Shown in pieces: positions 23,030 to 31,491 of a stretch of 36,211 bases of DNA. The stretch covers positions 1 to 36,211 of the forward strand of contig JAFAKB010000067.1 in the NCBI GenBank assembly GCA_019235885.1, in the 5' to 3' direction. The notes below the pieces were generated by a model. The model ran no database searches and had not been told where the DNA came from. It saw only the letters and a program-made list of their open reading frames with translations. Made by a program: the position numbers and the translations under genes. Origin of the DNA: Candidatus Eremiobacterota bacterium (GTDB taxonomy: Bacteria; Vulcanimicrobiota; Vulcanimicrobiia; Vulcanimicrobiales; Vulcanimicrobiaceae). The first letter of the stretch is position 1; every line of letters begins with the position of its first letter.

Positions 23030-23324
23030 AAACAATCTCCGAAGTGCGAGCGTTGGTCTGAGCTCATTGAATCACAAGGCGATGCCAACGGGTTGGCACA
23101 CTAAATTTCTTGCACCGCCGAAATTTGCCTTACGACGGGCGTGTGCTGTTCTCAGAGGCACCCAGCTTCGACAGCGAGAGGCAAGGAAGCCATGGCCGGG
23201 CGCGGCGCACCTGGCCTGCCGCGTTGAGGTACCGTCCTACGCCGTCGGAATTTTTGGTCTGGTAGGCGATCGCGACGGACGCCGCAGGCACCAGCGAGCG
23301 TGGCGGCGCCGAGGCGAGTACCCT

Positions 23325-23392
23325 GGGTACCATCGGGACACCCGCCGTAGTCAGCGGAGCGAGAGGCGCCGAGCAATCAGCGCCCCTCCTCG
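23325..23392 (+). repeat. structured 68-bp repeat, copy A
   Basis: Matches copy B (31013-31080) over 68 bp without gaps, with 55 identical positions. It begins GGTACCATC, contains CCGCCGTAGTCAGCGG (a 4-bp stem with an 8-nt loop) and ends in a GC-rich hairpin GAGAGGCGC...GCGCCCCTC with one mismatch. Relative to copy B one stem pair changes T-A to C-G, which suggests selection on structure. Nothing else gene-like was found in 23030-23475. Confidence 0.6.
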
Positions 23393-30428: not shown

Positions 30429-30796
30429 TCATGCATAACCACGCGCAGCCTGAATGCGCGTGTCGCACTGCTGACAGATCAGCCGGGTATTTTTGTCCGT
30501 ATAGCCCTTCATCGCCTGGAACGATCCAGAACTGCACCCCATTCAGGCAGCGGCTCGCCGCACTCTTGGCAGTACCCTCCTTGCGCTTTGCGCTTTGCGC
30601 TTTCGCTCCTTGAGCGCGCGCCTTGCGATGGGCTTGCTGCGCTCGTCGTACGTCAGCTCCTTCGCAAGCTTACGCCGGAGCGCCCAGTGCAGGTCCTGAT
30701 CATCCCGCGCGAGCGTAATGATTCGCGAACGCACGTCGGCGATCGCGGAGCGAATAGTTCGGAGAGTTCGGATGGAGTAAGGTTACGGTTCGGCAT
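30429..30796 (-). pseudogene. HNH endonuclease-like gene with three frameshifts
   Basis: Three frames together rebuild a small HNH protein family: MPNRNLTPSELSELFAP, then DVRSRIITLARDDQDLHWAL and KELTYDERSKPIARRALKER, then GGYCQECGEPLPEWGAVLDR, then AMKGYTDKNTRLICQQCDTR and AARGYA. The first break is two surplus bases in CCGCGATC near 30746. The second is an extra 7-bp unit in a run of three AAAGCGC repeats (about 30575-30600); deleting one unit joins KAQ to GGYC perfectly. The third is a missing base just after LDRS. The paired CxxC residues of the zinc site are still present. Three independent shifts indicate a dead gene; sequencing error could explain one but hardly all. Confidence 0.75.
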
Positions 30797-30898
30797 CCGC
30801 ACGGGCCCTCGAGCGTCGCGGCGTCATAATATAGACCTGTTTGCAGCAGAAATGCCACCCTGTTGTCACACCCTGATGCGATGATGATCGCACGGCAA

Positions 30899-30972
30899 GC
30901 GCCCGTAGCTCAACTGGATAGAGCACGCTGCTGACTACGGCGGAGATGAGGGTTCGAATCCCTTCGGGCGCG
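30899..30972 (+). tRNA. tRNA with anticodon GAC as folded (isotype uncertain)
   Basis: A full cloverleaf folds: acceptor GCGCCCG/CGGGCGC, D-arm GCTC-AACTGGATA-GAGC, anticodon stem CGCTG/CGGCG, five variable bases, T-arm GAGGG-TTCGAAT-CCCTT, discriminator G, no encoded CCA. The 7-nt loop CTGACTA gives anticodon GAC (valine), but position 37 would be T, which is highly unusual. The acceptor stem and D-loop look like arginine tRNAs. The anticodon arm contains 15 nt identical to the complement of the repeat placed 57 bp further on, so the arm may have been altered by recombination or the gene may be a degenerate or special tRNA. Confidence 0.8.
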
Positions 30973-31012
30973 ACCCGCGACGCGGTGAAACTTGACGGGA
31001 CTAGTCACCCCG

Positions 31013-31080
31013 CGGTACCATCAAGGCATCCGCCGTAGTCAGCGGCCAGAGGGGCGTCGAGCAATCGACGCCCCTCGTCG
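31013..31080 (+). repeat. structured 68-bp repeat, copy B
   Basis: The second copy of the element at 23325-23392 (55 of 68 positions identical, no gaps, same orientation). It lies 40 bp behind the tRNA. TCCGCCGTAGTCAGC (31029-31043) is the exact reverse complement of tRNA bases 30930-30944. The element ends in the perfect hairpin annotated at 31049-31076. Confidence 0.65.
31049..31076. terminator. 12-bp hairpin with GCAA tetraloop
   Basis: GAGGGGCGTCGA (31049-31060) and TCGACGCCCCTC (31065-31076) pair perfectly around GCAA, a stable GNRA-type loop. It lies between the tRNA and the convergent VOC gene and probably terminates both, though it lacks a T-tract. Confidence 0.65.
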
Positions 31081-31101
31081 TCCGGCCGCCTATCGTGAGC
31101 G

Positions 31102-31491
31102 CTAGTTGCTGCTGACGCCGACGGGGGCGGGCGAGTGCAGGCCGTGAATGTTGCCTTCGGAGTCTTTGAACATCGCCCAGCCGCCCCACGGCTCGGTGCG
31201 CGGCGGTTCCTCGAACTCGACGCCTTTCTTCGCGAGCTCGTCGTGCGTCTTGAAGACGTCGTCGGTCTCGAGGATGACGCCGCTGAAGCCGCCGACTTTC
31301 TCGGGCGACCAGCCCGGCGAACCTTTCGAGAGAGTGAACGACGTCTGCGCGTGCGACGGCGCGACGGTGACCCAGCGCGCGTCTTCACCCATCGGCACGT
31401 CCATCGTTTTCTCCCAGCCTAATTTCTGGACGTAGAAATCGGCCGCGCGGTCGACGTCGTTCACGAACAGGCTCACTACCGAGATGTACAT
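31102..31491 (-). CDS. VOC-family (glyoxalase/bleomycin-resistance fold) protein
   Basis: 129 residues from the ATG at 31491 with AAGGAG 9 bp upstream. Typical VOC layout: SLFVNDVDRAADFYVQKLGW in the first half-module and FSGVILETDDVFKTHDELAK, then GGWAMFKDSEGNIHGLHSP, in the second. The second-half Glu/His pattern suits metal binding. Members of this branch are small cytoplasmic lyases, dioxygenases or drug-binding proteins, so substrate is open. Unlike the VOC gene at 5084-5471 the frame is intact. It is divergent from the acyl-CoA synthetase gene. Confidence 0.88.
   Translation of the reverse strand: MYISVVSLFVNDVDRAADFYVQKLGWEKTMDVPMGEDARWVTVAPSHAQTSFTLSKGSPGWSPEKVGGFSGVILETDDVFKTHDELAKKGVEFEEPPRTEPWGGWAMFKDSEGNIHGLHSPAPVGVSSN

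Follow-up and report, generated by a model that had tools for sequence, protein, structure and literature searches.

An arginine-type tRNA with a non-arginine anticodon and an adjoining antisense RNA gene: a candidate RNA-only module in Candidatus Eremiobacterota and other phyla

We analysed a stretch of DNA of 36,211 nucleotides (nt) from a Candidatus Eremiobacterota bacterium (GenBank assembly GCA_019235885.1, contig JAFAKB010000067.1), referred to here as the window. Its sole transfer RNA (tRNA) gene, at 30899-30972, is followed on the same strand, 56 nt further 3', by an element complementary to the anticodon arm of that tRNA. An earlier note on this DNA, made from the letters alone, had reported that 30930-30944 is the exact reverse complement of 31029-31043. 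We confirm this, and the complementarity extends to a duplex of 18 positions (30927-30944 with 31029-31046), 17 of them Watson-Crick pairs and one a U.G pair. The features concerned are:

30899..30972, plus strand: tRNA gene, called tRNA-Val(GAC) by ARAGORN; Rfam RF00005, 56.5 bits against a cut-off of 29
30927..30944, plus strand: pairing region, covering part of the anticodon arm and the beginning of the variable region (inverted repeat I1; 18 nt, 94% complementary)
30992..31021, plus strand: sigma70-like promoter of the predicted small RNA (TTGACG, 18 nt, TACCAT; 9/12 matches)
31028..31085, plus strand: predicted small antisense RNA, placed by promoter and hairpin positions; start from the promoter, end approximate
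31029..31046, plus strand: antisense stretch, the 5' end of the predicted small RNA; 18 pairs with the tRNA anticodon arm, one of them G.U
31049..31076, plus strand: perfect hairpin of 12 base pairs (bp), terminator-like, no U run (inverted repeat I2)
23318..23390, plus strand: orphan small RNA gene lacking a tRNA, with a -10-like TACCAT at 23328-23333, an antisense stretch at 23342-23357 and an imperfect hairpin

The anticodon stem of the window tRNA is read from the sequence as 30926-30930/30938-30942 and the loop, 30931-30937, as CTGACTA, so that the anticodon is GAC (30933-30935) and position 37 is U. The gene has A20 and G73, and CCA is not encoded. When the anticodon arm is left out, the nearest of 71 ordinary tRNAs of the same genome are arginine tRNAs. 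The ARAGORN call, the loop and this comparison agree with the earlier note, which had described a GAC anticodon with U37 on an arginine-like body. An ordinary elongator tRNA-Val(GAC) would have a valine-type body, U33 and a purine at position 37; the window tRNA has an arginine-like body and U37. TRNA scoring and a count of other GAC and arginine tRNA genes had also been called for in that note: the Rfam score lies far above its cut-off, and the genome holds an ordinary Val-GAC with A37 as well as the arginine tRNAs ACG, CCG, TCT and CCT. The window tRNA is therefore an extra one.

The promoter-like site at 30992-31021 is the only one within 30700-31200, where 0.1 would be expected, and its -10 box ends 7 nt ahead of the antisense stretch. 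The predicted product would be 50-60 nt long and would begin with that stretch; it has no match at Rfam cut-offs. The best reading of the downstream element is a small RNA gene in its own right, with a promoter of its own. The earlier note had offered, as one of two possibilities, that the element pairs with the arm in the transcript and controls or blocks the tRNA; the pairing is supported, the assignment to the tRNA transcript is not.

A DNA search of the same genome found four other places: three further units of tRNA and small RNA, B, C (contig 64) and D (contig 38), and the orphan at 23318-23390. The tRNAs of B, C and D have a different arm each, and each is followed by its own fitting antisense stretch. 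Contiguous-pair scores of the cognate pairs are 46.5 for the window unit (A), 37.5 for B, 36.5 for C and 30.5 for D, against 13-25.5 for the crosses among them, except for the tRNA of C with the small RNA of D (28.0). When the ordinary tRNAs of the genome were set against its five small RNAs, none scored above 27.5, as compared with 30.5-46.5 for the four cognate pairs. The orphan is 81% identical to the downstream half of the window unit and, among the tRNAs of A to D, fits only that of A, with 16 pairs. Two side observations belong to this genome. Just past unit D (L007:1088-1280) lies what by eye is an apparent split leucine-type tRNA with internal extra sequence, for which Rfam named nothing. 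Contig 37, of 9.4 kilobases (kb), carries a dense cluster of tRNAs, with 18 Rfam matches of various types in a span of some 3.1 kb (L067:2553-5699), which looks like a phage or mobile tRNA array.

Within the phylum of the window, a covariance model built from six units had matches in 12 of 99 family genomes, at 15 places, one of which (L079) is a plain arginine tRNA. A second model, built from twelve units and searched over 149 phylum genomes, had matches in 29 at the cut-off used, many of them plain arginine tRNAs; matches below about 80 bits are mostly of this kind. L079, L095, L100, L101 and L102 were rejected as ordinary arginine tRNAs. All the matches that we accepted as units comprise the tRNA together with a promoter-like site and an antisense stretch that fits it. 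Such units occur in 16 of the 149 genomes, all from the family of the window (G000, G007, G013, G015, G020, G027, G032, G034, G060, G068, G103, G110, G111, G116, G119 and G121).

Two further comparisons in this phylum did not select for the antisense partner. Among 176 distinct tRNAs in the loci compared, the 16 odd ones (GAC type, with one GGC and one called "gacg") all have a downstream duplex score of at least 26.5, whereas 159 of the other 160 score at most 24.5, a single proline tRNA in a dense tRNA array reaching 31. The second was a blind search of the 149 genomes that ignored the antisense gene and asked for an arginine body, A20 and a position 35 other than C. It returned 15 tRNAs in 11 genomes, with the anticodons GAC (11), CGC (2), GGC (1) and CGG (1). 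A contiguous downstream duplex of 11-20 pairs accompanies 13 of the 15; L257 has a 15-nt antisense match with one mismatch, and L258 a weak one (12 nt with one mismatch, with a score near the 95th percentile of ordinary tRNAs). An adjoining antisense stretch is thus clear in 14 of 15 and weak in one. The earlier note had named as refuting evidence relatives that keep the arm and lack the repeat; this is not seen in the window's phylum, and is seen in part elsewhere, as described below. The range of anticodons indicates that the anticodon can change, the antisense partner changing along with it. L250, with an arginine-like body and anticodon GCT, was dismissed, having no partner.

Two loci or groups of loci in these relatives deserve separate mention. 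At L071 a first unit is followed by a truncated second tRNA and an intact-looking antisense stretch for a different arm, resembling the orphan at 23318. At L070 and L074 (and, judged by the end of a reading frame, at L073 and L075) the unit adjoins a convergent gene whose translation resembles, by eye, tRNA-dihydrouridine synthase; several genera are involved, and the position beside this gene is probably inherited.

A wider scan of species genomes used a pattern with YGACKA as the loop motif and AGCTYAA as the D-arm motif. Outside the window's phylum, conservation of these two motifs proves nothing, the pattern having imposed both. The scan gave 62 loci. At 19 the antisense stretch lies downstream on the same strand, 7 of these being Eremiobacterota and 12 coming from Chloroflexota, Omnitrophota, Elusimicrobiota and one other bacterium. 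At 26, all labelled Actinomycetota or belonging to a group therein, up to 21 pairs link the tRNA to a partner encoded on the other strand, 81-157 nt upstream; these are 26 of the 32 actinobacterial loci examined. Divergent genes cannot form a hairpin in one transcript, and the conserved pairing at these loci must therefore be between two RNAs. Three loci did not look like tRNAs (L135, L146 and, by eye, L166). Comparison across these genomes thus indicates that the units are patchy across several phyla and come in two gene arrangements.

On the minus strand of L132, about 340 nt past the start of the first tRNA, lies a second tandem unit whose small RNA, by eye, fits both halves of the arm and, in the hairpin loop between, the D arm. 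An even sample of 396 Actinomycetota genomes yielded two matches: L114, already known, from Actinobacteria bacterium IMCC26077, whose genome is complete, and a lysine-like tRNA. Viral contigs contained at least 81 arginine-body matches lacking C35. Downstream of one of them (L316:4904-5100; arginine-like body, anticodon CTG), some 22 nt away, lies an antisense stretch of 15 bp, and the two may be a viral relative of the system. Searching for U37 tRNAs by pattern yielded little, its flexible gap having shifted the frame.

The specificity of the pairing was assessed by re-pairing tRNAs and antisense stretches among loci. For 32 of the 33 actinobacterial loci (L122 was left out, its contig beginning 29 nt upstream of the tRNA) the cognate sum is 982.5, as compared with at most 685.0 in re-pairings, and none of 20000 reached it. 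For 27 co-directional units the cognate sum is 914.5, as compared with at most 656.5, again with none of 20000 reaching it, and the cognate partner ranks first in 23 of 27, ties included. The latter result should be read with some caution, since 13 of the 27 came from the pattern search and were chosen for a high downstream score, which favours the permutation test; the comparison of 176 tRNAs, the 32 actinobacterial loci and the blind search involve no such choice. Cognate pairs thus appear to recognise each other specifically, C and D of the window genome partly crossing.

Counts of tRNA features, pairs and promoters refer only to the units judged paired (53). In a table of 52 distinct rows, which favours pairing because each pair was placed in its best register, each of positions 28-32 is paired in 40-49 rows and uses five or six of the standard pair types. 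Position 33 is paired in all 52 rows (T-a, C-g or T-g) and position 37 in 50 rows (T-a, G-c or G-t). A promoter-like site with at least 9/12 matches stands ahead of the antisense stretch in 29/53 units, as compared with 1.8% of control windows, and ahead of the tRNA in 6/53, as compared with 3.0%. Taken together, sequence comparison strongly supports the pairing of arm and antisense stretch.

The tRNAs also share features of identity. A20 and a purine at position 73 are identity elements for arginyl-tRNA synthetase (ArgRS), and C35 is a main one. A20 is present in all 53 paired units, having been asked for neither by the pattern nor by the choice of units, and the discriminator is A or G in 43. 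The anticodon is GAC in 52 and GGC in one, and C35 is thus missing throughout. At position 33, 36 units have T and 17 have C; T37 is found in 36, and a single unit encodes CCA. Judged by these positions, the body says arginine and the anticodon does not.

A second contact is suggested in many of the small RNAs, where AGCTACC, GAGTTAC or a similar sequence after the antisense stretch is the complement of the tRNA's own GGTAGCTCAA in the D arm. With 300 random windows from the locus concerned as control, the D-arm match falls in the best 5% in 9/26 divergent and 12/27 co-directional units, 21/53 in all, where two or three would be expected. The order of the contacts, anticodon arm and then D arm, is that of a true antisense. 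At L153, L160, L172, L142, L132, L133 and L134 we noticed by eye, directly behind the tRNA, a hairpin whose loop carries a short complement to the tRNA's own anticodon loop and which might be a second antisense element, in cis.

We propose, and consider rather probable, that these units are an RNA-only two-gene module in which a small antisense RNA holds a potentially misdecoding tRNA in check. The proposal draws on the complementarity, its specificity, its independence of gene arrangement and the promoter-like site, all established by comparison. One gene would encode an arginine-type tRNA with a non-arginine anticodon; the other would encode a small RNA with a 5' end antisense to the anticodon arm and, in many relatives, a further stretch complementary to the D arm. 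Acting in trans, the small RNA would bind the anticodon loop together with one strand of its stem, so opening the arm, and the paired tRNA would presumably be kept from charging or decoding. The tRNA itself would most likely be harmful or conditionally useful, for instance by placing arginine where Val, Ala or Pro is encoded. Our statements on expression, charging, toxicity and purpose are inferences.

Several observations weigh against this proposal. With C35 missing, charging by ArgRS is uncertain, and C33 in 17/53 tRNAs argues against efficient decoding and hence against a misdecoding role. In the window copy the hairpin has no U-tract, a terminator scan did not list 31049-31076, and no D-arm complement was found. 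At 14 of the 62 pattern-scan loci a tRNA-like gene lacks a convincing partner, one of these loci being at a contig end. They include an actinobacterial group with a similar loop (L116, L125, L152 and L156); when three of these four genomes were searched whole, no candidate other than the tRNA itself came closer than two mismatches. Lastly, duplex energy does not discriminate in this GC-rich genome: the cognate pair of the window has a predicted value of -50.5 kcal/mol, shuffled sequences average -41.2 (minimum -58.4), and two ordinary tRNAs reach -53.9 and -52.9. Since shuffled sequences and ordinary tRNAs give similar values, we dropped free energy as an uninformative test.

The pairing is symmetric, and sequence cannot tell which of the two RNAs regulates the other. 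The roles could thus be reversed: the small RNA would be an effector acting on messenger RNAs (mRNAs) or ordinary tRNAs, with the tRNA-like gene serving as a sponge or decoy that captures and removes it. We regard this as unlikely. C33 would fit a tRNA-like RNA that is past decoding, and the complement to the D arm found in many small RNAs addresses a sequence common to ordinary arginine tRNAs. However, the antisense stretch tracks the private arm of each tRNA, stem positions included, and has no match among the ordinary tRNAs of the window genome. Moreover, antisense genes lacking an intact tRNA (23318-23390 and the second copy at L071) fit an antitoxin or regulator left behind better than an effector that has lost its decoy.

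Far less probable is an element in cis, in which the downstream stretch would fold back on the tRNA in a precursor transcript and govern processing or termination, much as attenuators and T-boxes do. The position of the window element, close behind the tRNA on the same strand, agrees with this, as do the trailer-hairpin loops seen by eye at several loci. Against it stand the promoter between tRNA and element in the window and the sites of at least 9/12 ahead of 29/53 antisense stretches, while the 26 actinobacterial loci with the partner upstream on the other strand contradict it as a general account. Furthermore, the next gene downstream of the window element runs the other way, which leaves nothing for a leader to control.

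The earlier note's other possibility, an exchange of the arm by recombination at an attachment site in the anticodon loop, which would have left a copy behind, can practically be set aside: such attachment sites do exist in tRNA genes, and the orphan at 23318-23390 demonstrates that the downstream half can stand alone, but the copy is inverted, not direct, is preceded by a promoter-like site, covaries with the arm, G.U pairs included, and changes its arrangement between phyla (in Actinomycetota upstream and on the other strand), and neither an integrase beside several copies nor an empty site in a close relative was seen.

The reading that we prefer, a small RNA restraining a dedicated tRNA, has partial counterparts among known systems. 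A T-box pairs with three anticodon bases and the CCA end of a tRNA and controls a downstream gene in cis. The units resemble it in that an RNA element reads the anticodon loop by base pairing, but they form 11-21 pairs over loop and stem, and the element is a stand-alone RNA, sometimes on the other strand; Rfam gave no T-box match in the window or in eight loci. The 3' external transcribed spacer (ETS) of leuZ in E. coli is a tRNA-linked sponge that pairs with unrelated small RNAs; like the units, it involves a short RNA that derives from sequence flanking a tRNA gene and acts by base pairing, whereas the short RNA described here fits the neighbouring tRNA and has a predicted promoter of its own. 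Antisense RNAs that control plasmid copy number and type I toxins are likewise short and cognate-specific, with their own promoter and terminator; the small RNAs of the units are directed at a tRNA, and their genes adjoin the target gene rather than overlapping it on the opposite strand. An integrase attachment site would show a direct repeat and a nearby integrase, whereas the repeat is inverted and no gene family is common to the 51 sites examined, which leaves no shared integrase beside the units.

RNA-RNA toxin-antitoxin systems form a class known as "type VIII". The units consist of two adjoining RNA genes that need no protein, as such a system would, and no shared protein partner was found: of 188 open reading frames at the 51 sites, no family occurs at more than five. 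More tentatively, and at less than even chances in our view, the units may represent an RNA-only system of a new class, for toxin-antitoxin action or conditional mistranslation, with an arginine-type tRNA bearing a foreign anticodon as toxin and, as antitoxin, a bipartite antisense RNA directed at its anticodon and D arms. Copies would diversify together, largely with no cross-reaction, and release of the tRNA would lead to arginine misincorporation or tie up part of the translation machinery. The nearest system is CreTA, in which, as far as the description in PMC8501985 goes, the small RNA toxin CreT sequesters rare tRNAs, tying up an ordinary tRNA by way of mini-ORF codons, with a CRISPR-type guide as antitoxin. 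In both cases the partners are RNAs and a tRNA is involved; on that description the present units differ in targeting a dedicated tRNA, in direct antisense pairing and in having no protein gene common to the sites. T-box leaders, tRNA-linked sponges and attachment sites each fail on a defining point. CreTA has a guide-type antitoxin that works with CRISPR-Cas proteins; in the units the antisense target is the neighbouring tRNA.

Antisense RNAs are known that act against mRNAs and plasmid primers. A literature search, with preprints and most subscription journals outside its scope, found no description of a dedicated antisense gene for a tRNA. An antisense gene dedicated to a dedicated tRNA, covarying with it across phyla and in two arrangements, would be a new kind of regulated tRNA. 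It lets direct tests be posed of whether a tRNA with a swapped anticodon poisons or reprograms translation, and of whether the antisense RNA switches that tRNA off. Some tRNAs annotated as valine, alanine or proline tRNAs may not work for those amino acids.
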